From NCBI GenBank assembly GCA_028679075.1, contig JAJRCF010000017.1:1-64000 (forward strand): DNA of 64,000 nucleotides, read 5' to 3'. The stretch is from Methanoregula sp. (GTDB lineage Archaea > Halobacteriota > Methanomicrobia > Methanomicrobiales > Methanospirillaceae). The notes beneath the pieces were generated by a model that did not search any database, was not told the origin of the DNA, and saw only the letters and a program-made list of their open reading frames with translations. Each line of letters starts with the position of its first letter. Position 1 is the first letter of the stretch. The position numbers and the translations under genes are program-made. Below, in pieces: positions 4,515-43,416 of this stretch.

Positions 4515-5309
4515 ATGATGATGCGTTCATGCGCAGTGGCTGGCATGTTCTATCCGCGTGAGCCTTCCCACCTTGAGCAACTGCTCGGGAAGTTCTTCTC
4601 GGGCACGAAAGCCCGGGTGGCAGGGAACACGTTCGGCATTGTCTCACCCCACGCCGGGTATATCTACTCCGGCCAGGTGGCCGCCCATGCATTCGCGGCA
4701 ATCCCCCGCGAATTTGCGGGTACCTTTGTCGTGATCGGGCCGTCGCACCGCGGGTACCTCACCTGCGTCTCCGAGGTCCCGTGGGAGACCCCCCTTGGTG
4801 TTGTTGATACCGATGCAGAGTTCGTCAGGGCCCTTGATATTGAAACCGACGAGTTCTCCCACCGGGACGAGCACTCAATCGAGGTCCAGGTCCCCTTCAT
4901 CAAGTACCGGTTCCCGCGGGCGCGGATTGCCCCGGTGATGATGGGACAGCAGGACTATGCGGGTGCCCTGCGGCTTGGCGAGAAGATCCTCGTGGCAATC
5001 CGGCAGACCCGGCGGGACGTCAGGATCGTGGCATCGAGCGACTTCTCGCACTACGTGCCGGAGCAGAAGGCCAGGGATGACGACCTCTGGGCGATCGAGC
5101 CCTTGAAGACCCTTGACACGCGGGAGTTCTACCGGCGGATCGCTGAGCGCCGGGTCACGGCCTGCGGGTACGGGCCGATCACCGCGATGGTGACTGCCTG
5201 TGCCGGCCTGGGTGCAAAGGCGGCTGAGCTGATCCGGTATGCAACGAGCGGTGAGACGACGGGCGACTATCGCGAAGTCGTAGGCTATGCCGGTATTGCG
5301 GTGATCTAG
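4515..5309 (+). CDS. MEMO-family protein (AmmeMemoRadiSam system protein B)
   Basis: Member of the MEMO/YjdA fold related to extradiol dioxygenases. Its biochemical role in archaea is unsettled. About 264 residues show the family blocks AVAGMFYPREP near the N-terminus, GIVSPHAGYIYSGQVAAHAF, VVIGPSHRG, DEHSIEVQVPF and SSDFSHY, which carry the conserved His residues lining the putative metal pocket. The start is ambiguous (TTG 4512 or ATG 4515/4518/4521). ATG 4515 is taken for its spacing from AGAGGG (4501-4506). The gene directly precedes mevalonate kinase, a frequent archaeal neighbourhood. Confidence 0.9.
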   Translation: MMMRSCAVAGMFYPREPSHLEQLLGKFFSGTKARVAGNTFGIVSPHAGYIYSGQVAAHAFAAIPREFAGTFVVIGPSHRGYLTCVSEVPWETPLGVVDTDAEFVRALDIETDEFSHRDEHSIEVQVPFIKYRFPRARIAPVMMGQQDYAGALRLGEKILVAIRQTRRDVRIVASSDFSHYVPEQKARDDDLWAIEPLKTLDTREFYRRIAERRVTACGYGPITAMVTACAGLGAKAAELIRYATSGETTGDYREVVGYAGIAVI

Positions 5310-5310
5310 G

Positions 5311-6180
5311 TTGGCAACGTGGAGTGCGCCGGGCAAGGTGTTTTTGTTCGGCGAGCATGCGGTGGTGTACGGCAAGCCCGGTATAGCGATGGCGATCAAA
5401 CCCCGCGTGTTTGTCACGGTACGGAACACCCGGCACGCCGCGAAGGCAAAGTCTCCCTATATCGATGGATGCTTCGATGCAATGGGAGTCGTGGGCAGCG
5501 TGTACATCAATTCCCAGATCCCGAGTTCCTCGGGCCTCGGGTCGTCGGCCGCAGTGACCGTTGCCACGCTCTCCGCGATCAACGACGAGTTCAAGCTGAA
5601 CAAGACCCGCGAGGATATCGCCAACATGGCGTTCGAGATCGAGAAGACCGTGCAGAAAGGGCGGGCGAGCCCCACGGACACCACGGTGTCGACCTATGGG
5701 GGCATTGTCCTGATCACCGGTGGTTCGCGACGGAGGCTTCCCCCCCAGAATATACACCTCGTGATCGGGGACTCGCTCGTCTCCCACAGCACCTCGAAGA
5801 TGGTGGAGCAGGTATCAGAGCTGAAAAAGAAGCACCCGGAGATCGTGGACCCGGTGCTGGATGCGATCCAGGGTGTGAGCCTCGCTGCGATCCACCAGCT
5901 CCATAACCCCCGCGAACTCGGGCGGTACATGAACATGAACCACGCGCTCCTCGATGCCCTCGGTGTCGGGCACCCGCAGCTTTCGCGGCTCGTGCTCGCG
6001 GCACGTTCCGCGGGAGCGTTCGGCGCGAAGATCACGGGAGCCGGCGGGGGCGGGAGCATGATCGCCCTCTGCCCCAAGCAGCTCAAGCACCGGGTCGCGA
6101 GTGCAATCGAGGCCTGCGATGCACGGGCGATTGTTACCGGCATCGACACGGAAGGCGTCAGAAAGGAGAAAAATGTCTGA
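5311..6180 (+). CDS. mvk: Mevalonate kinase (GHMP kinase)
   Basis: Phosphorylates mevalonate with ATP, the first committed kinase step toward archaeal isoprenoid lipids. The 289 residues carry the GHMP motifs: SAPGKVFLFGEHAVV at the N-terminus, SSGLGSSAAVTVATLS (ATP-binding glycine/serine loop) and KITGAGGGGSMIAL (motif 3). The start is TTG 5311, one base after the MEMO stop, and no better start fits the conserved N-terminus. It overlaps the next gene (IPK) by 8 nt. Confidence 0.96.
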   Translation: MATWSAPGKVFLFGEHAVVYGKPGIAMAIKPRVFVTVRNTRHAAKAKSPYIDGCFDAMGVVGSVYINSQIPSSSGLGSSAAVTVATLSAINDEFKLNKTREDIANMAFEIEKTVQKGRASPTDTTVSTYGGIVLITGGSRRRLPPQNIHLVIGDSLVSHSTSKMVEQVSELKKKHPEIVDPVLDAIQGVSLAAIHQLHNPRELGRYMNMNHALLDALGVGHPQLSRLVLAARSAGAFGAKITGAGGGGSMIALCPKQLKHRVASAIEACDARAIVTGIDTEGVRKEKNV

Positions 6181-6928
6181 TGGGGTAATTTTAAAACTCG
6201 GCGGGAGTATACTTACTGATAAGAGCGCCGACTGCGCAATCAACCGGGAGAGCCTTGCCACCATCGCCGCGGCAGTTGCGGAGGCAGGGACGGAAGGGAT
6301 CGTCATCATCCATGGTGCCGGTTCCTGTGGGCACCCCGAGGCAAAACGGTATCACCTCGATGTGGGGGCCGCTCGCGGTAAGACCGACGGGATCTATGTC
6401 ACGCACCGGGCGGTCAGCGGGCTCAATGATGCGGTCGTCACAGCACTCCGGGAAAAGGGTGTTGCGGCAGCCGGGGTCCACCCGTTCCACGTGGCGGTTG
6501 CGGACACCGGCAGGCTCCTCTCGTTCGAGTGCCGGCACCTCGAGAAGATGCTGGCACTGGGGATGGTCCCCGTGATCCACGGCGACGTGGTGATGGACCT
6601 CTCCCGGGGTGCCTGTATCGTATCGGGCGACCAGCTCGTGCGGTACCTCGCGGCTGCATTACAGATCCGCCGCGTAGGGCTCGCCACCGATGTACCGGGA
6701 GTGCTGGATGGAGGACGCGTTGTGCCGGAGATTACCCGGCACACGGTTGCGTCCCTCCATATCGGAGACTCGTTGCATACCGATGTTACCGGTGGAATGA
6801 GAGGGAAGATCGATGAACTGCTCGGCCTCGCGGATGCGGGGATCGGGTCGGATATCTTTCATGTCTCGCGGGTGGCGGACTTTCTTGCAGGGTCCGCCCA
6901 TGGCGGGACGATAGTTCGGGGAGAGTAA
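6173..6928 (+). CDS. Isopentenyl phosphate kinase
   Basis: Converts isopentenyl phosphate to isopentenyl diphosphate in the alternative archaeal mevalonate route. The 251 residues have the amino-acid-kinase fold motifs ILKLGGSILTDK (K8, K17) and IIHGAGSCGHPEAKRY, with H54 at the position expected for the catalytic His. The usual GSFGH is GSCGH here. ATG 6173 lies just after GAAAGGAG and overlaps the mvk stop. The neighbours mvk and IPP isomerase support the assignment. Confidence 0.95.
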   Translation: MSDGVILKLGGSILTDKSADCAINRESLATIAAAVAEAGTEGIVIIHGAGSCGHPEAKRYHLDVGAARGKTDGIYVTHRAVSGLNDAVVTALREKGVAAAGVHPFHVAVADTGRLLSFECRHLEKMLALGMVPVIHGDVVMDLSRGACIVSGDQLVRYLAAALQIRRVGLATDVPGVLDGGRVVPEITRHTVASLHIGDSLHTDVTGGMRGKIDELLGLADAGIGSDIFHVSRVADFLAGSAHGGTIVRGE

Positions 6929-6933
6929 GGACA

Positions 6934-8025
6934 ATGGGTGACAAAGTGAAGCTGACGTCGTCGCGAAAACTCGACCACCTGCGGATCTGCGCAGAGGAAG
7001 ACGTCGAGTGCGGGGATGCCGGGTTTAATGATATCAGGTTCGTGCACAATGCCCTGCCGGAATGCGACATGGGCAAGATCGACCTCTCGGCCCGGTTTCT
7101 CGGCCACACCCTCTCCTCCCCCCTTTTCATATCGGCAATGACCGGGGGACATCCCGGGACAAAAGACGTGAACGCACGGCTCGCCCGGGCAGCAGAACGG
7201 TTCAGGATCGGCATGGGTGTCGGCTCGCAGAGGGCTGCCCTTGAGGACAAAAAACTTGCAGACACGTTTGCGGTTGTCCGTGATCAGGCGCCGCATGCTT
7301 TTCTCGTGGCCAACCTTGGCGTTGTCCAGCTCCGCGACCATGGGATCGAATGGGCGGAACGTGCGGTCGAGATGATCGGTGCGGACGCACTGGCCATTCA
7401 CCTGAACTTCCTGCAGGAAGCGATCCAGCCGGAAGGCGACCATAACGCGGTCGGCTGTTTTGCCGCAATCGGGGAGCTCTGCCGTGATTTTAAGACCCCT
7501 GTCATCGTCAAGGAGACCGGGTGCGGGATCTCTGCGGCCACGGCACGGAAGTGCTGGGGTGCGGGTGTCGGGGCAATCGATATCGGCGGCTGGGGCGGGA
7601 CGTCCTGGGCGGCAGTCGAGGCTGTGCGTGCAGGCAAGGGTGTCCGTGCAACAGACAAGGCACTCAGGACGCTCGGGCAGGACTTCTCGGCATGGGGCAT
7701 ACCTACCGTGGTCAGCCTTGCCGAGGTGCTTGCAACCGGCGGGCCGGTCATCGCTTCCGGCGGTGTCCGGAGCGGCCTCGACATCGCGAAGGGACTTGCA
7801 TTCGGCGCAGACCTCTGCGGCATGGCACTCCCGCTCTTAAAACCGGCAATGGAGAGCGACGAGGCCCTTGCCCGGACGATAGATGCGATCCACCGGGAGC
7901 TGACCGCGGCCATGTTCCTGACCGGGTCGGCACGGATCACCGACCTCAGGAAGGCCCCGGTCTACCTCACGGGGCGCACACGCCAGCAGATCGACAAGGA
8001 TAACCCGGCACGGGTCCGGCGGTAA
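6934..8025 (+). CDS. fni: Isopentenyl-diphosphate delta-isomerase, type 2 (FMN)
   Basis: Interconverts isopentenyl and dimethylallyl diphosphate using reduced FMN. The 363 residues match the type 2 family: SSRKLDHLRIC near the start, FISAMTGGHPG, GVGSQRAAL, the IVKETGCGIS substrate/flavin segment, IDIGGWGGTSW and IASGGVRSGLDIAKGLAFGAD at the phosphate-binding end of the TIM barrel. It begins 5 nt after the IPK gene, in the same operon. Confidence 0.96.
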   Translation: MGDKVKLTSSRKLDHLRICAEEDVECGDAGFNDIRFVHNALPECDMGKIDLSARFLGHTLSSPLFISAMTGGHPGTKDVNARLARAAERFRIGMGVGSQRAALEDKKLADTFAVVRDQAPHAFLVANLGVVQLRDHGIEWAERAVEMIGADALAIHLNFLQEAIQPEGDHNAVGCFAAIGELCRDFKTPVIVKETGCGISAATARKCWGAGVGAIDIGGWGGTSWAAVEAVRAGKGVRATDKALRTLGQDFSAWGIPTVVSLAEVLATGGPVIASGGVRSGLDIAKGLAFGADLCGMALPLLKPAMESDEALARTIDAIHRELTAAMFLTGSARITDLRKAPVYLTGRTRQQIDKDNPARVRR

Positions 8026-8091
8026 AGGAATTACCACGACAAACGGGAATTTTTAGCAGAATACCCGTAACAGATACACAGGAGATACACC

Positions 8092-9429
8092 ATGGATATA
8101 GAAATTATTGCAGTGGGCGGATACGACGAGGTCGGGCGGAATATGACCGCCGTCCGTTGCGGAAAGGAAACCGTCATATTTGATATGGGGCTCCGCCTGG
8201 ACCAGATCGTTGTCCACGAGGACGCAGAGATCGAGACGATGAACACCCTTGACCTGATCAAGATCAAGGCGATCCCGGACGATAGCATGCTGAACGGGAT
8301 CGAAGGGTCCGTAACAGCCATTGTCTGCTCGCACGGGCACCTCGACCACATCGGCGCGATCCCGAAGCTGGCACACCGGTACAACGCACCGATCATTGCC
8401 ACCCCCTATACCACGGAACTGATCCGGCAGCAGATCTCAGGCGACCAGAAGTCAGGCACAAACAACAAGCTCTTCGCGCTCAAGGCCGGGCAGCGGTACA
8501 CGCTCTCGCAGAACCTCGTCCTGGAGTTTGTCCGCACCCAGCACTCCATCATCGATACGGTGACCCCGGTGCTCCACACCCCGCACGGCGCCATTGTCTA
8601 TGCACTTGACTTCAAGTTCGACCGGACACCGGTCATCGGCGAACCCCCGGACTTTGCCCGCCTCAAACAGATTGGCAAGGAGGGGGTGCTCGCCCTGATC
8701 GTCGAGAGCACGAACATCGACCGCAGGGGCCGGTGCCCGAGCGAGCGGATCGCACGGGACCTGGTCCGGGACACGATCACGAGCTACGAGGACGAAAAAA
8801 ACGCGCTTATCGTCTCGACCTTCTCGTCCCACATCGCCCGCATCAAGACGATCGCGGAGTGCGCCCACGAGATCGGGAGGAAACCGGTCCTGCTCGGCCG
8901 CTCGATGGAGAAGTATTCCGTTACTGCCGAACAGATGAAGCTCGTCTCGTTCCCCGAGACCACGAGCGTCTTTGGGAACCGGCGGACCGTCGACCGCACC
9001 CTGCGCCGGATGATGAAGGACGGGAAAGACAAGTTCCTGCCCATCGTTACCGGGCACCAGGGCGAGCCGGGCTCGATCCTTACCCGCATGGCGACCGGCG
9101 ACACGCCGTACCAGCTGGGAACCGGTGACAAGGTCATCTTCTCGGCGAACGTGATCCCGAGCCCAATGAACACCGGTCAGCGGTACATGGTGGAGGCCCG
9201 GCTCGGGCTCTCCGGTGTCCGGATCTTCGAGGACCTGCACGTGAGCGGCCACGCGTACCGGGAGGACCACTACGAGCTGGTCCAGCTCCTCTGCCCCCAG
9301 CATATCGTGCCCGCCCACGGGAACATGAAGATGACTGCAGCCTACACCCAGTTTGCCGGCGAGATGGGGTATACGCCCAACTCCACGGTCCACCTCGTGG
9401 GGAACAGCCAGCGTATCAGGATCAATTAA
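8092..9429 (+). CDS. RNase J-like metallo-beta-lactamase ribonuclease
   Basis: Beta-CASP metallo-beta-lactamase of the RNase J group. Euryarchaeal members act as 5'-3' exoribonucleases. The 445 residues carry the zinc motif HGHLDH (H81, H83, D85, H86), IVESTNIDRRG, a beta-CASP core (VSTFSSHIARI, GRSMEKY), VTGHQGEPGSIL and the C-terminal SGHAYREDHYELVQLLCPQHIVPAHG. It lies between IPP isomerase and the prenyl synthase, a common archaeal arrangement. Confidence 0.94.
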   Translation: MDIEIIAVGGYDEVGRNMTAVRCGKETVIFDMGLRLDQIVVHEDAEIETMNTLDLIKIKAIPDDSMLNGIEGSVTAIVCSHGHLDHIGAIPKLAHRYNAPIIATPYTTELIRQQISGDQKSGTNNKLFALKAGQRYTLSQNLVLEFVRTQHSIIDTVTPVLHTPHGAIVYALDFKFDRTPVIGEPPDFARLKQIGKEGVLALIVESTNIDRRGRCPSERIARDLVRDTITSYEDEKNALIVSTFSSHIARIKTIAECAHEIGRKPVLLGRSMEKYSVTAEQMKLVSFPETTSVFGNRRTVDRTLRRMMKDGKDKFLPIVTGHQGEPGSILTRMATGDTPYQLGTGDKVIFSANVIPSPMNTGQRYMVEARLGLSGVRIFEDLHVSGHAYREDHYELVQLLCPQHIVPAHGNMKMTAAYTQFAGEMGYTPNSTVHLVGNSQRIRIN

Positions 9430-37376: not shown

Positions 37377-37432
37377 GATGACCTCCCCTGTGGAGATCAT
37401 AGGTCCGGGCCTCAGGGAAGATCCCTGTCCGG
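37377..37432 (+). promoter_or_regulatory. Structured 5' leader of the lipoprotein mRNA (two hairpins)
   Basis: Hairpin 1, ATGA-C-CTCC/GGAG-A-TCAT (37378-37400), starts at the same distance from the TATA box as the P3 hairpin. Hairpin 2 has an outer TCCGG/CCGGA stem and an inner CAGGGA-AGA-TCCCTG stem (about 37404-37432). AAGGAG and the ATG follow. This may set mRNA stability or translation. Confidence 0.5.
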
Positions 37433-37455
37433 ATACCAAAAAGGAGACATATCCC

Positions 37456-37839
37456 ATGAAAAGAAGCATTATCATCATGTTGGTCGCGTCAGCGATCCTC
37501 GTAGCAGGAATTCTTGTCGCGGGCTGCACGTCAGATTCCGGAAGTTCTTCCACGCAATCTGCCGCATCCAGCCCGGCATCGTCCGAGCAGGTCCAGGCCA
37601 CACCCGCTGCAAGTGCAGCCGGGTCATCAGAACAATCCGGCACAGCTCCAGCGGGAGTGGAGATAAATGGTACCAGACCCTCCGGCACACCTCCGGATGG
37701 TATGCAGATGAATGGCACCGCACCCGCCGGCGGCCCGGGTGGCATGCAGGGTAACGGCACTGCACCCTCCGGGGAAAAGCCGTCCGGTGAGAAGCCCTCC
37801 GGTACACCCCCGTCGGGTACCCCGGCAACCAGTACATAA
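37456..37839 (+). CDS. Small Pro/Gly/Ser-rich lipoprotein
   Basis: 127 residues. Signal peptide with lipobox LVAGC (C24), then a wholly low-complexity mature part: Ser/Ala-rich (about 25-60), then repeats of the type NGTAPAGGPGGMQGNGTAPSG and GEKPSGEKPSGTPPSGTP. The NGT sequons could be N-glycosylated. AAGGAG at 37441-37446 gives a strong ribosome site. It has no recognised domain. It shares its promoter type with the surface-protein operon (33215) and the GT39 gene (41143), both of which also encode Gly/Met-rich segments. Confidence 0.75.
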   Translation: MKRSIIIMLVASAILVAGILVAGCTSDSGSSSTQSAASSPASSEQVQATPAASAAGSSEQSGTAPAGVEINGTRPSGTPPDGMQMNGTAPAGGPGGMQGNGTAPSGEKPSGEKPSGTPPSGTPATST

Positions 37840-37982: not shown

Positions 37983-40031
37983 TTATTCTTCGTAACCCAG
38001 ATGCCGGAGATCGGCAAGGACGTCGGCAATGGATGCATACCGGTCCTGCGGTTTTTTCTGCAGGCATTTCTCGATGATGCGCCTGATCGCGTCCGCGTTC
38101 CTTCCTGAGGGTTCCGGGGGCAGCGGCGTATCGTGGAGGATCGCCTGCGTAATCTCCCCCATACCGGTACCACTGAACGGCAGCCTGCCGGTCACCATCT
38201 CGTAAAAGAGGACGCCGAGCTGGTAGATATCCGTCGGTTTCCCGGCCTCACCATAGATATTCGGGGCGAGCTGCTCGGGTGCAGCATAGTGCAGTGAGAA
38301 ACTGATCACGCCGGTATGTTTTGTGTCCGTGAGCGCCTTTGCGAGCCCCCAGTCCGTGATCTTCGGGATCCCCCCGGCAGTGATAAGGACGTTTTCCGGC
38401 TTGATGTCACGGTGGGCAATACCCTGTTCGTGGGCATACCGGAGCCCCTCTGCCACACCGGATATAATTGTTACCGCCTTATCCGTGTCAAGGGGGAATT
38501 TCATCAGGGCAAGGGACGATTCGACATACTCCATCTCGATGTAGGGCATGGGGAAGATGTTTGCTGCATACATCTCGACGATATTTTTATGGTGGAGCCC
38601 CTGCCAGATATGCAGCTCCTTGGTGAACTGCGAGCCCGTCACCTCGTCAAACCGGACCGGGATCTTCACCGCCACGTGGCGGCCTTCGTCTGGATCCCAT
38701 GCCCGGAATACCCGGCCCACTCCCCCCTCTCCCATGTATTCTGCGTCGGGATACTTCCTCTCCAGTCCGGGCGGGAGGTGGGCGGTGAAATATGACTGGT
38801 CCTTCCATTCCCCGGACGCCGGATCTGTTGTCCCGGGCCGCTTTACAACCGTTGCATTGGTCGTGGGGCTGGCCTGTACATACTCCACGTGGGCTGCCGG
38901 TGGATGCACCTTCCTGCGGCTCCGCTCGACCCACACGCCGATAATCACGGAGACGATGATGACGATGAGGATCACCACCAAGAACAGGAGCAGGATCCCG
39001 GGAAACCCCCCGGGCGGCGGCGTTGTTCCTGCCCCGGGTCCGGAGGAAGGGACCGTTCCCGGGTACTGTCCCTGGCTCCCCGGGACGTCGGAGACCTGCG
39101 GGTTCTGGACCGGCTGGTCCGGGAGCTGCTGTTGTTCTGCCCCGGCCGGGATGTCCGGATGCGAGGCAGGACCGCTCATACCGGTGGCATTCGTGGGGAG
39201 GGTACTCTTCACGAGCAGGGAATATGCGCCGGGCAGGCTGATGAGCGGGGCATGGTCGGATATCTCTGCTGCACCTGCCGCTCCCGAGGAGGCGGCTGCT
39301 GTCTCCAGTACGGTGTAGGACGAATCCCCGACACCGTCGCCATTGCTGTCCGTTCCGGTATACGCTTTCCAGGAATTACCCAGCGGGCCGGAGAAGCTGT
39401 TCCCCCCATATCCATAGTCCTGGCGGGCCTGGTACCACAGGTTATCGGTTGACTGGCCGGTCACCTCGACGGTGTTTCCGAACTGGTTGAGGAAGAAGGT
39501 GTTGGAACGCGATGAGCGGTCGATCGTGACCCCGATGCTGTTGTTTACGAGGGTGTTTTCGGAGAAGATATTATTCGCCGCATTCTTTAGTTCAATCCCC
39601 CGGGACATCCCATCGATCGAGATATCGCTGATCCGGTTGTTGTCCGATCTCACGAGGAGCCCGGCCTGGGCCGTGCCGGAGATATGCAGCCCGTTGAGCG
39701 TGATCCCGTCGGCTTCAAGGGTGATCCCGGCACGGGAGTCATCCGCGACGATGGTCGGGGGGCTGGCCGTGTCCAGCGCACCAAACACGATGGACCGGTC
39801 AATGACCAGGCTCTCATGGTACGTCCCCGCGGGGATAAAGACAGAATCGCCGTTGGCTGTTGTGTTGATCAGGCCCTGGATCGTTCCGTTCCCGGTCGCA
39901 TTGTACATGTAGACCGTTGCGGACACCGGCGGGATTGTCAAGAAAAGGGTGACGAGGAGCAGGACCGGCAGTACGGCACGCAGTTGCTGGATATTCCCCC
40001 TCCCTGGTCCTGGACCGCTGTTGCCCGCCAT
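37983..40031 (-). CDS. Receptor-like Ser/Thr protein kinase with beta-helix ectodomain
   Basis: 682 residues. Signal/anchor segment about 18-38. Extracytoplasmic right-handed beta-helix repeats of the NosD/PbH1 kind (about 50-190: GITLEADGITLNGLHISG, AGLLVRSDNNRISDISIDG, GIELKNAANNIFSENTLVNN). A Pro/Gly-rich linker, then one membrane span (345-366). Kinase domain about 429-660 with Gly-loop GEGGVGRV (434-441), K456, E472, HRDIKPEN (540-547), DWG in place of DFG (560-562) and APE (584-586). All catalytic residues are present. It starts 7 nt after the FHA regulator gene and is probably co-transcribed. Confidence 0.9.
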   Translation of the reverse strand: MAGNSGPGPGRGNIQQLRAVLPVLLLVTLFLTIPPVSATVYMYNATGNGTIQGLINTTANGDSVFIPAGTYHESLVIDRSIVFGALDTASPPTIVADDSRAGITLEADGITLNGLHISGTAQAGLLVRSDNNRISDISIDGMSRGIELKNAANNIFSENTLVNNSIGVTIDRSSRSNTFFLNQFGNTVEVTGQSTDNLWYQARQDYGYGGNSFSGPLGNSWKAYTGTDSNGDGVGDSSYTVLETAAASSGAAGAAEISDHAPLISLPGAYSLLVKSTLPTNATGMSGPASHPDIPAGAEQQQLPDQPVQNPQVSDVPGSQGQYPGTVPSSGPGAGTTPPPGGFPGILLLFLVVILIVIIVSVIIGVWVERSRRKVHPPAAHVEYVQASPTTNATVVKRPGTTDPASGEWKDQSYFTAHLPPGLERKYPDAEYMGEGGVGRVFRAWDPDEGRHVAVKIPVRFDEVTGSQFTKELHIWQGLHHKNIVEMYAANIFPMPYIEMEYVESSLALMKFPLDTDKAVTIISGVAEGLRYAHEQGIAHRDIKPENVLITAGGIPKITDWGLAKALTDTKHTGVISFSLHYAAPEQLAPNIYGEAGKPTDIYQLGVLFYEMVTGRLPFSGTGMGEITQAILHDTPLPPEPSGRNADAIRRIIEKCLQKKPQDRYASIADVLADLRHLGYEE

Positions 40032-40038
40032 CTGTCGT

Positions 40039-40806
40039 TCACTCGTTTACTACGAACAGGAACCGTGCGGAACTCTCGCCGATCGCGAGGTCGATGACGT
40101 CGCCATTCTTCAGCACCGTCTTTGTCATCGGCGTGATGAGCCCGGCATTGATATAGGTCCCGCTCGAACTCCCCCGGTCCTCGATAAACCACTCCTCCCC
40201 CGACCGGAAGATGATGGCATGGGGTTTTGTGATCCGCGTCACTGCCGCGTATTCCACGGGAAGTGCGATGTCCCCTTCCTTTGCCGCTGCCGGGAAATCC
40301 GGATCGATCCGGCCGATGCTGGCACGGTCCTTTTTCAGGAGGAAGGTCCTCCCGGCTGCGCCGCCCTCCACGAGGTGCAGGGCCGGGCACTGTCCTCCCG
40401 ATTCTTCGAGGAGTGCCTTTTTGATGGGGCCGATGCGCGAGTGGAGGTCCCCGTATCCCATCGGGATGTTGATGCTGGAGAAGACACCGATGTTCCGGAT
40501 CAGTGTCTCGAGCCCCCCGTCAACAAGGGAGAATTTCCAGACCGGGTGGATGCCCTTGACGGTCTCCCTCCCGAACCCTGCCTCCTTCTTTACCAGGCCG
40601 ATGACAACGAGCTGGTCGATGTGTTTCTTGGTGTTGGCATAACTGGTATCGATGCGGGAGGCGATCTCGCTGATCTCGCGGGGTTCCTTCTCGATGACCT
40701 TGAGTATCTTCAGCCGCACCGGATTCGACAGGACCTCAAGGTACTCGGATAACTCCTTTAAAAATGCCGGATCTGTTGAAATGGAAACAGTCTGTTTGTC
40801 GGACAT
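40039..40806 (-). CDS. Winged-helix (ArsR-like)–FHA fusion regulator
   Basis: 255 residues. N-terminal winged helix (about 20-95: LEVLSNPVRLKILKVIEK, then EISEIASRIDTSYANTKKHIDQL). FHA domain at about 142-252 with IGR (164-166), TRITKPHA (190-197; the usual Ser three before His is T193) and RGSSSGTYIN (211-220). FHA domains bind phosphothreonine, so the kinase encoded directly downstream is the natural partner, perhaps autophosphorylating and recruiting or releasing this DNA-binding protein. An inverted repeat 46 bp upstream suggests autoregulation. Confidence 0.9.
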   Translation of the reverse strand: MSDKQTVSISTDPAFLKELSEYLEVLSNPVRLKILKVIEKEPREISEIASRIDTSYANTKKHIDQLVVIGLVKKEAGFGRETVKGIHPVWKFSLVDGGLETLIRNIGVFSSINIPMGYGDLHSRIGPIKKALLEESGGQCPALHLVEGGAAGRTFLLKKDRASIGRIDPDFPAAAKEGDIALPVEYAAVTRITKPHAIIFRSGEEWFIEDRGSSSGTYINAGLITPMTKTVLKNGDVIDLAIGESSARFLFVVNE

Positions 40807-40851: not shown

Positions 40852-40867
40852 GTATGGATTACCATAC
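40852..40867. promoter_or_regulatory. Palindrome GTATGG-ATTA-CCATAC upstream of the FHA regulator
   Basis: Perfect 6-bp arms around a 4-bp centre, 46 bp before the regulator's ATG. ArsR-type winged-helix proteins commonly bind such sites. It overlaps the probable core promoter of the minus-strand operon (CAATAATAGTAT on that strand). Confidence 0.5.
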
Positions 40868-40986
40868 TATTATTGTGTGTGATAAAATAGGTTGGTATTT
40901 TTTTGATCTGCCGGGTCCCGTGGGTGATCTGACGGAGGAACCGTGCTGGGGGTCTCCCTGATATGCCGCGATATATGATCCGGCCG

Positions 40987-41142: not shown

Positions 41143-43416
41143 ATGACTGACACATCCATGATACAAAAATACCGGTACGAGATCCTCCTTGTCGGCATCC
41201 TCCTCCTCTCGGCATTCCTGAATATCTGGAACATCTGGGGGCAGGGTTATTCGAATGCCTATTACGCGGCAGCGGTCAGGAGTATGCTTGAGAACCCCTC
41301 CCTCCTCTTCTTCAATTCGTTCGATGCAGCAGGGTTCATCACGGTCGATAAGCCGCCTGTCGGGCTCTGGGTGCAGGCAGCGAGTGCGGCACTGCTGGGT
41401 TTTTCCGGCTGGTCGCTGGTCCTCCCCCAGGCGCTTGCCGGTGTCGGCTCGGTTGCGCTGGTCTACCTGATCGTCTCACGGGCGTTCGGGAAACCCGCGG
41501 GACTGGTATCGGCGCTTGCCCTTGCGATCACCCCGATCTTCGTGGCAGTCTCCCGGAACGGCACCATGGACGGGGTCCTCATCTTCGTCCTCCTCCTTGC
41601 GGTATGGGCTGGCCTGAAGGCGGCACGCGAGTCCTCCCTTCCCTGCCTCCTGTCAGCAGCCATCCTGATCGGCATCGGGTTCAATGTTAAGATGATCCAG
41701 GCGTTCATCGTCGTCCCCGCAGTCCTCGCCATCTATTTCCTGGGTGCAAAGGAACAGTCCCTGAAAAAACGGGCAGTCCACGTCATGGTGGCCATCGCTG
41801 TTCTTGCCGTTGTCTCCCTCTCGTGGGCGGTTGCCGTTGATACGGTCCCGGCCGACCAGCGCCCGTATATCGGGGGCAGCGGGGACAACACGGTCCTCGG
41901 CCTCATCGTTAATTATAACGGGATTCACCGGCTGGAAAGCGATTCAGCGGGGCCGGGCATGGGTCAGGGTGGATTCTCGCAGGGCGGCCCGTCAACCAGC
42001 GGGAATATGCCGCCGGACAACCAGCGTGATACATCGTCTGCACCGGGGGGTGCATGGAACCGTACCGCCGGTCGCACCCCGGGCCAGGATGTTGCTGACA
42101 TGGCCCGGCCGCCCGGGATGGGACAGGATGCAGTAATAGCCGGCGGACCTCCGGGTAGCGCTGCCAGCGGAATGCCCGGTGGACCCGGTACTGAAACCGG
42201 CAATGCACCCCAGTCCGGCAGCGGCAGAGGTGGCGGAGGCATGGGAGATGAGACCGGGACGCCCGGCATCGCCCGGCTCTTCAGCGAGGGGCTTGCCGGC
42301 CAGCTCAGCTGGCTGCTGCCCTTTGCCCTCCTCGGGCTCCTCGCGTTCTGGAGACGACCGGCCATACTCTCCCTCAAAGGGCTGGAAGCAGCAGGGCTGT
42401 CCGGTGAAAAAGGCCTGACCCTCATGGCGATGGGGCTCTGGCTCCTGCCCGGTCTCGTCTATTTCAGTCTCACCACGGGTTTCTGGCATACCTATTACCT
42501 TGCCACCATCGCCCCGCCGCTTGCGGCGCTTGTGGGGATCGGTGCGGTGGCGATGTATGATGCGTACGTTCGTGGAGGAGCACGGGACTGGCTCCTTGTG
42601 GCAGCAGTCCTCGTCACCGGCTGCATACAGGCAGTGATCCTGCTCTATACGGCCGCATGGTCCGGCCCGCTCACGGCAATTGTCGCGGTAGGGACAGCGG
42701 TACTGGCCGTCTTGCTGGTGTTCTATAAATTCCGGGACCGGGCCAGCACGGGAATGATACCGAAGCTCGTGGCGGCAGGAGCGGTTGCCCTCCTCTTCAT
42801 CGCACCGTTTGTCTGGGCCTGCACGCCGCTGATGTATGGGTCGGGGAATATCCTGCCTGTTGCCGGCCCACGGCTCTCGGGGCAGGCAGGTGGAGGCGGG
42901 GGGATGAATATGCCCGGTTCGTCATCCGGAGCAGGCACCTCATCGCTTGCAGAGTACCTCCTCTCCCATGCAACGGGCGAGACATGGATCGTTGCCGTAC
43001 CAAGCAGCATGAATGCCGCTTCCGACCTGATCATAGAGACGGGGAAACCCGTCCTGTCGCTTGGGGGTTTTGCCGGCAGCGACCAGGTCCTGACCGTGGA
43101 TGAGGTAAAGCAGATGGTATCTGGCGGGGAGATCCGCTATTTCTACCTGTCAGGTGGACAGGGTGGCGGGGGATCGGACTCCGGCAACAGCGCCATCTTC
43201 AGCTGGGTCCAGGGCACGTGCACAGCAATCCCCTCATCCGAATGGGACGATGGCAGCAGTGCACCGGCCAGCGACCGGGGCCTCCGGTCCCTTACCGGAA
43301 GCCAGAACAGCACGATCCCCGGCCTGCGGGACACCGTGCCTTCCCAGTCAGGAGCCGGGGGTTCAGGCTCAGGCAGCCAGAACGGCCTGTACGACTGTGC
43401 CGGGTATGCGGGGTAA
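41143..43416 (+). CDS. GT39-family membrane glycosyltransferase (ArnT/YkcB-like) with Gly/Met/Pro-rich insert
   Basis: 757 residues. A multi-span N-terminal half starts NIWNIWGQGYSNAYYAAAVRSM and contains FITVDKPPVGLWVQA, the conserved active-site loop of polyprenyl-phosphate-sugar transferases. A low-complexity extracytoplasmic insert runs about 269-374 (GPGMGQGGFSQGGP, SGMPGGPGTETG, GRGGGGMG). More spans follow, then a C-terminal extracytoplasmic domain (about 600-700: ETWIVAVPSSMNAASDLI, VLSLGGFAGSDQVLTVDEV, IRYFYLSGG) as in bacterial YkcB. It probably transfers sugar from a lipid carrier to surface proteins or lipids. A GtrA gene follows. Confidence 0.85.
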   Translation: MTDTSMIQKYRYEILLVGILLLSAFLNIWNIWGQGYSNAYYAAAVRSMLENPSLLFFNSFDAAGFITVDKPPVGLWVQAASAALLGFSGWSLVLPQALAGVGSVALVYLIVSRAFGKPAGLVSALALAITPIFVAVSRNGTMDGVLIFVLLLAVWAGLKAARESSLPCLLSAAILIGIGFNVKMIQAFIVVPAVLAIYFLGAKEQSLKKRAVHVMVAIAVLAVVSLSWAVAVDTVPADQRPYIGGSGDNTVLGLIVNYNGIHRLESDSAGPGMGQGGFSQGGPSTSGNMPPDNQRDTSSAPGGAWNRTAGRTPGQDVADMARPPGMGQDAVIAGGPPGSAASGMPGGPGTETGNAPQSGSGRGGGGMGDETGTPGIARLFSEGLAGQLSWLLPFALLGLLAFWRRPAILSLKGLEAAGLSGEKGLTLMAMGLWLLPGLVYFSLTTGFWHTYYLATIAPPLAALVGIGAVAMYDAYVRGGARDWLLVAAVLVTGCIQAVILLYTAAWSGPLTAIVAVGTAVLAVLLVFYKFRDRASTGMIPKLVAAGAVALLFIAPFVWACTPLMYGSGNILPVAGPRLSGQAGGGGGMNMPGSSSGAGTSSLAEYLLSHATGETWIVAVPSSMNAASDLIIETGKPVLSLGGFAGSDQVLTVDEVKQMVSGGEIRYFYLSGGQGGGGSDSGNSAIFSWVQGTCTAIPSSEWDDGSSAPASDRGLRSLTGSQNSTIPGLRDTVPSQSGAGGSGSGSQNGLYDCAGYAG

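Follow-up and report, generated by a model that had tools for sequence, protein, structure and literature searches.

In the 64,000-nucleotide window analysed here (contig C17, positions 1-64000, of a Methanoregula sp. genome of 2.5 Mb, 90% complete in 40 contigs), a gene for a winged-helix-FHA regulator lies directly ahead of a gene for a receptor Ser/Thr kinase, with a spacing of 7 bp. An earlier, sequence-only reading had proposed for this pair a signal running from an extracellular ligand through the kinase and the FHA domain to a promoter. The coordinates, strand and domains that it gave for both genes agreed with the open reading frames (ORFs), Pfam matches and AlphaFold models, and with a gap of 7 bp the two genes are likely co-transcribed (Table 1).

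Table 1. Positions of the genes, domains and sites of the regulator-kinase locus in the window.
Feature	Position	Strand	Evidence
Winged-helix-FHA regulator, 255 amino acids, first gene of the pair	40039..40806	-	ORF, Pfam, AlphaFold, homologues
Receptor Ser/Thr kinase, 682 amino acids, second gene of the pair	37983..40031	-	ORF, Pfam, AlphaFold, homologue alignment
Regulator: DNA-binding region, helix 13-26 and ArsR-like winged helix, residues 13-94	40525..40770	-	Pfam HTH_20/HTH_5, AlphaFold (AF2)
Regulator: FHA domain, residues 142-252; pocket R166, T193, H196, N220	40051..40383	-	Pfam FHA, Foldseek, conservation
Regulator: Thr6 codon, conserved tail threonine, proposed to accept phosphate and bind the FHA domain	40789..40791	-	Thr in 139/140; AlphaFold confidence (pLDDT)
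Kinase: putative secreted right-handed beta-helix (NosD-like) sensor, residues 40-240	39312..39914	-	Pfam NosD/Beta_helix, AlphaFold (AF2)
Kinase: predicted transmembrane helix, residues 345-373	38913..38999	-	Hydropathy, AlphaFold (AF2)
Kinase: Thr394 codon, linker motif N-A-T-V-V-K, proposed docking site	38850..38852	-	Motif statistics
Kinase: protein kinase domain, residues 421-676 (K456, E472, D542, N547, D560-W-G)	38004..38771	-	Pfam Pkinase, 81 homologues, PknB fold
Promoter block ATACCAAC-N-TATTTTATC, conserved, ahead of the regulator gene	40881..40898	-	Close orthologues, seven-genome site search
Perfect inverted repeat GTATGG-TAAT-CCATAC, possible operator (weak evidence)	40852..40867	.	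Seen in sequence; partly conserved
Gene for a small putative lipoprotein, tail-to-tail with that of the kinase	37378..37839	+	phmmer match, 12/12 closest orthologous loci

The regulator matched the Pfam families FHA (E 1.9e-11) and HTH_20 (E 3.7e-9), and its AlphaFold model combined a winged helix with an FHA fold, for which chains of GarA, DgcB (with its phospho-tail), OdhI and EmbR were among the best Foldseek matches (best E 3.2e-7). In an alignment of 140 regulators, G165, R166 and H196 were invariant and N220 was Asn in 139, while position 193 was occupied by Ser (105), Thr (34) or Gly (1). Judged by these residues, the phosphothreonine pocket is mostly intact and the FHA domain can probably read phosphothreonine. 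The fusion of a phosphothreonine-type FHA domain to a DNA-binding domain, as described in the sequence-only reading, is supported. No NCBIfam model scored above its cut-off for either the regulator or the kinase.

The kinase showed Pfam matches to the kinase domain (E 5e-45), NosD (E 1.6e-17) and Beta_helix (E 1.6e-7). Its AlphaFold model consisted of a beta-helix at about residues 40-240 with a predicted local distance difference test score (pLDDT) mostly above 90, a long hydrophobic helix and the kinase domain, and conforms to a predicted layout of extracellular sensor, membrane span and cytoplasmic kinase. PknB was the best-ranked solved fold in the structural search; the matches listed for a fold search aimed at the beta-helix were kinase structures. 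Across 81 aligned kinases, K456, D542, N547, D560, W561 and G562 were invariant, E472 was Glu in 78 and Asp in three, and the HRD arginine was kept in 77. In 35 further kinases K456, E472, D542 and N547 were again invariant and D560-W-G was present in 34, the last row having a gap. The residue numbering of the earlier account was thus correct, and the DWG triplet that it had noted in place of DFG, invariant in the 81 kinases, is a hallmark of the family. The kinase domain is intact and active-looking by its sequence, with the catalytic residues of Hanks-type (eukaryote-like) Ser/Thr receptor kinases; the idea of a pseudokinase was rejected because the catalytic residues are conserved across homologues. 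HCD replaces HRD in the kinases of loci L121, L122, L123, L124 and L129, and HLD in that of L128. One kinase, split into two reading frames on a single contig (L054:4001-5270; a real break or an assembly error is possible), was excluded from the kinase alignment, which leaves 81 kinases to 82 regulators; alignments A1 and A2 comprise 67 of these 82 regulators and 67 of the 81 kinases, respectively. Compared with the kinase core, the input side is variable: among 67 scanned kinases we found NosD in 29, Beta_helix in 20, DUF1565 in 10 and PEGA in eight, with one to six hydrophobic stretches before the kinase domain, signal peptide counted. By these domain matches, sensors have been exchanged on a constant kinase core.

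The pairing of these two genes had been thought unusual. When it was sought in relatives, the pair proved to be conserved and order-wide, so that the refuting condition set in the sequence-only reading, a pair absent from all relatives, does not apply. Regulator homologues were found in 111 of 149 relatives, and kinase-domain homologues (E up to 1e-25) in 117. In a sample of the phylum, 43 of 294 genomes were positive for the regulator (E up to 1e-15), and all 43 belong to the order of the window's own genome, Methanomicrobiales as judged by the named relatives; a profile of 67 regulators had hits in 154 of 232 genomes from the class, covering 33 of 40 genera. The nearest named regulator is that of Methanoregula sp. 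OWC_0058 (88% identity over 255 residues), and 80 named loci fell mostly to Methanoregula, Methanolinea, Methanoculleus, Methanomicrobium, Methanospirillum, Methanofollis and a Methanomicrobiales group, a few being labelled just Euryarchaeota and one Thermoplasmata. The regulator tail and kinase linker of this last record (L223, Thermoplasmata archaeon) are Methanoregula-like, and it is possibly a mislabelled bin.

Pairing was counted over the 150 matches listed for each of regulator and kinase. A listed kinase match lay near 126 of the 150 listed regulators, downstream on the same strand in 124, with the kinase domain within 1.9 kb in 123 of these and 4.9 kb away in one. In the other two, regulator and kinase are arranged tail-to-tail (G019:C63, L119:2745-5939; G025:C1, L120:5366-8604), so that the pairing is kept even without a shared transcript. 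Thirteen of the 24 listed regulators without a listed kinase were read: ten adjoin a kinase (the split kinase of L054 among them) and three are less than 1 kb from a contig end. In the named set, which overlaps the first, the kinase follows on the same strand in 70 of 80 loci and the other 10 break off too early to show one; in L224 the kinase frame starts about 0.9 kb downstream and comprises the kinase part only.

The window's own genome holds a second winged-helix-FHA and beta-helix kinase pair in another gene context (contig C12:33135-36176, corresponding to L008:5136-8177, with the regulator at 5136-5978 and the kinase at 6066-8177), whose kinase matches NosD (E 3.3e-26) and Beta_helix as well. 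Over their full length the two regulators are 45% and the two kinases 36% identical. In this genome, FHA gave two matches and Pkinase gave five, two of the latter being strong, and each strong kinase has one of the FHA proteins encoded immediately ahead of it. The second pair, together with the recurrence of pairs across the order, argues against a chance arrangement. Moreover, distances between regulators and between kinase domains were correlated over 81 pairs (0.87), and swapping kinases within the 16 multi-pair genomes lowered the mean correlation to 0.54, with 0 of 1000 swaps reaching 0.87, indicating that the pairs are inherited as units. This co-variation is compatible with specific recognition between partners, which it does not prove. 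Overall, the pair is real and order-wide, and probably functional.

Comparison of the regulators pointed to a residue that the sequence-only reading had overlooked, Thr6 in the N-terminal tail. It is Thr in 139 of 140 aligned regulators (82/82, 17/18 and 40/40 in the three sets, the last being those 40 of the 80 named regulators that fell below 95% identity to the earlier regulators); among 29 representatives chosen at 60% identity, 28 have it. In a 100-row alignment, the entropy of its column was 0.08 bit vs 2.8 to 3.4 for tail columns 2-5 and 8-11. The column never holds Ser, which fits the specificity of FHA domains for phosphothreonine. Its sole replacement is Ile, in the diverged regulator of L128. 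Ile, Leu or Val stands at +1 in 135 of 140 regulators and at +3 in 108, and residues 1-9 are predicted to be disordered (AlphaFold pLDDT <50). A near-invariant threonine before hydrophobic residues, in the predicted disordered tail of a putative phosphothreonine reader, resembles the arrangement in OdhI, GarA and DgcB. Locus L128 (L128:5068-11597) has two regulators: the first is not directly before the kinase, and the second, strongly diverged, is directly before it, lacks the aligned tail threonine and has K-T-F-E-L at a different spacing. An outgroup of HTH-only homologues for the tail threonine was sought in 40 genomes; the listed frames measured 211 to 363 amino acids, the 211-residue one (G002:C152) possibly being incomplete.

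A second threonine-specific signal was found in the kinase linker, defined as the stretch from the last hydrophobic segment to the kinase domain. The motif T[VILM][VILM] occurred in 53 of 81 linkers, compared with a mean of 9.7 (standard deviation 2.5) in 300 composition shuffles and a shuffle mean of 8.3 for linkers limited to 75 residues, whereas both controls stayed at chance (Ser version, 11 vs 11.2; reversed version, 8 vs 9.6). Because the motif had been picked after inspecting the same 81 linkers, other sets matter. When 98 kinases were clustered at 55, 60 and 70% kinase-domain identity, it was present in 15/22, 17/32 and 24/47, respectively, values reached by 0 of 500 shuffles each. Likewise, 18 of the 35 further kinases carried it, against 3.05 by shuffling (0 of 1000 reached this number); these are the kinases paired with the 40 counted regulators and, being related to the set of 81, are not fully independent of it.

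Several described systems share parts of this arrangement, and we compared them as far as the excerpts of the sources available to us describe them. In line with the locus studied here, the Mycobacterium tuberculosis regulator gene embR precedes the receptor Ser/Thr kinase gene pknH in one operon, EmbR ends in a C-terminal FHA domain behind a winged helix, and the FHA domain is required for EmbR phosphorylation by the kinase (PMC9239209). EmbR combines an OmpR-type wing with a BTAD domain, whereas the archaeal regulator has an ArsR-like wing and no BTAD by Pfam, and the conserved tail threonine, the order-wide family and the swapped sensors are archaeal features; the regulator would work like EmbR and stands outside the EmbR (SARP) family. 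In archaea, the Ser/Thr kinase of the St0829-St1565 system of Sulfolobus tokodaii phosphorylates a promoter-binding FHA protein and inhibits its binding (PMC5300886, citing others), and the ArnA/ArnB/ArnC system likewise has an archaeal Ser/Thr kinase acting on a promoter-binding FHA protein (PMC5300886, PMC10470591). ArnA differs in being a zinc finger-FHA protein with the vWA protein ArnB as partner (PMC12852372), and ArnC, according to the excerpt of PMC5300886, was not detected in the membrane fraction. The PknH-EmbR and St0829-St1565 cases mean that the earlier statement that no example had been described does not stand.

For the tail, the closest parallels are OdhI, GarA and DgcB, in which the FHA domain binds a phosphorylated threonine in the flexible N-terminal tail of the same protein; the DgcB tail peptide is EK(p)TSIV, with the +3 residue as key contact (PMC6733907), and Thr14 of OdhI is phosphorylated by PknG (PMC2784874). 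The archaeal regulator shares with them a threonine in a predicted flexible tail N-terminal to the FHA domain, and their FHA folds are among its best structural matches. Unlike these proteins, which act on metabolic enzymes or through a GGDEF domain, it has a DNA-binding output, with the winged-helix domain placed between tail and FHA. The NCBIfam OdhI model gave the regulator 23.4 bits at a cut-off of 200, so that it is no member of the OdhI/GarA family even if the mechanism may be similar. For the linker, PknB-FhaA offers a precedent in which an FHA domain binds the phosphorylated juxtamembrane segment of a receptor kinase, FhaA being, in the excerpt of PMC12077195, a cell-division and morphogenesis protein and no transcription factor. 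Our literature search found no archaeal system joining receptor kinase, winged-helix-FHA factor and tail threonine switch, although such a system may be described elsewhere, and the excerpts of PMC7226565 and PMC2877116 held nothing on the archaeal pair. Nor was any described system found with the full combination of swapped sensors, linker motif and self-captured tail threonine.

Taken together, we favour, at somewhat better than even confidence, the reading that the pair is a dedicated transmembrane phosphothreonine signalling unit, a functional counterpart of a two-component system with docking at the linker and self-capture of Thr6. An exchangeable extracellular or membrane sensor, here the beta-helix, would control the PknB-like kinase domain, presumably upon binding a ligand. 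The kinase would autophosphorylate, probably including the Thr-Val-Val motif of its linker, and the phosphorylated linker would recruit the regulator through its FHA domain. Once docked, the kinase would phosphorylate Thr6 in the flexible tail, and the phosphorylated segment would then be bound in the FHA pocket of the regulator itself, either of the same chain or of its dimer partner. This capture would free the regulator from the kinase and alter the way it binds DNA, if nowhere else then at its own promoter, the likely first target. The domains, catalytic residues, phosphothreonine pocket, pairing, co-variation, tail threonine in a predicted disordered segment and threonine-specific linker motif are the sequence-based part of this account. 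From them we infer ligand binding, autophosphorylation and Thr6 phosphorylation, as well as self-binding, the direction of the effect on DNA binding and the target genes. The core idea of the sequence-only reading is sound, and the conservation of the tail points to Thr6 as its specific phospho-acceptor; the extracellular ligand and any phosphorylation within the pair remain at the level at which that reading had put them, as suppositions.

Several observations weigh against this account. The FHA consensus includes the Asn of an N-G-T turn. GarA has Asn at this position, whereas 100 regulators have Gly (89), Ser (8, and Ser in the window's protein), Asn (2) or Ala (1); ligand binding is therefore less certain, with the certainty of the fold unaffected. 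The regulators are homologous, so that the 140 rows represent far fewer independent events. The linker motif is common and not fixed: among 17 odd or divergent kinases it was found in four against 1.9 expected, a count reached by 91 of 1000 shuffles and not significant, and a narrower cut of the 35-kinase set, which we judged too narrow, gave 6/19 vs 2.5 (27 of 1000 shuffles). In the same 17 kinases the HRD arginine was replaced by Cys in five and Leu in one, the other named residues being kept. Three lone kinases (L135, L136, L138) had no regulator in the 11 kb of sequence covered. No phosphatase was found inside the pair, the PP2C genes of the genome lying on other contigs next to other Pkinase matches. 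Finally, according to the excerpt of PMC9239209, phosphorylation of EmbR was not detected in M. tuberculosis under normal growth. As to these genes themselves, the PP2C genes L139 (C4:30084-30704) and L140 (C1:238862-239575) each stand beside another Pkinase match and are candidate signal erasers, and the lone-kinase frame of L138 exceeds 1500 residues.

The same data can be read in other ways. The FHA domain might read phosphothreonine on the kinase alone, in the linker or activation loop, with a membrane-held regulator kept from DNA and the tail threonine never phosphorylated. The threonine-specific linker motif, the binding of the phosphorylated PknB juxtamembrane domain by the FHA domain of FhaA (in the excerpt of PMC12077195) and the presence of Thr in 69 of 81 activation loops would all suit such tethering; we nevertheless regard it as unlikely, for it leaves unexplained a Thr6 kept in all but one regulator amid varying surroundings, and the linker threonine is kept less strictly than the tail threonine. 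An activation-loop threonine as the FHA ligand was itself rejected, since no loop column is invariant although most loops contain some Thr.

Alternatively, the tail threonine and its hydrophobic neighbours could be a structural element, such as an edge strand or a DNA minor-groove arm, while the kinase phosphorylates other regulator sites in the manner of PknH and EmbR. T-[ILV]-x-[ILV] could contribute a beta strand, and EmbR is phosphorylated in vitro on several threonines (as the excerpt of PMC9239209 has it), but the segment is predicted to be disordered, and all regulators but one of the 140 keep its threonine, the exception having Ile at the aligned position; we consider this explanation improbable. 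It would be more surprising still if the main substrates of the kinase were other proteins, such as those of the envelope encoded nearby, the regulator controlling expression of its operon alone and its FHA domain reading an unrelated phosphoprotein. Conserved envelope genes do adjoin the pair, as described below, but the near-constant pairing and the co-variation across paralogues speak against so loose a relationship, and we give this possibility very little weight.

At the promoter of the regulator gene, the closest orthologues retain the block ATACCAAC-N-TATTTTATC, with some substitutions, between diverging flanks. A search of seven genomes returned five zero-mismatch sites, each ahead of a regulator gene; the own-promoter site in G025 has one mismatch, none within two mismatches was present in G011, and elsewhere there were four two-mismatch sites and no other. 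As zero-mismatch sites were confined to regulator promoters in these genomes, a conserved promoter or autoregulation is indicated, and no regulon; the block may represent core promoter conservation alone. The operator reading of the inverted repeat was dropped, the repeat being partly kept in orthologues and no palindrome being common to 82 regulator upstream regions. At the other end of the pair, the putative lipoprotein is of low complexity, has no Pfam or NCBIfam match and is a candidate extracellular partner or target. It is present, tail-to-tail with the kinase gene, in all 12 closest orthologous loci (L039-L050), with a MacB-like permease nearby in 10 and a PMT-like glycosyltransferase in nine; some of these contigs are short and two loci appear near-identical. 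These conserved neighbours hint at an envelope-related input or output for pairs of the window type. The PMT/YkcB-like glycosyltransferase in the window (41143-43416) carries a long low-complexity stretch rich in Gly, Met and Pro.

That Methanomicrobiales use phosphothreonine pairs of one kinase and one regulator, with swapped sensors, a linker docking motif and a near-invariant tail threonine whose self-capture by the regulator's FHA domain serves as a transcriptional switch, is in our estimate evenly poised. In this order-wide euryarchaeal family, kinase, reader and output are encoded side by side and a single candidate residue, Thr6, stands out. If the proposed mechanism is true, the pair would constitute a eukaryote-like receptor-to-DNA phospho-pathway in two proteins and would provide a natural series in which sensors are swapped while the core stays constant.

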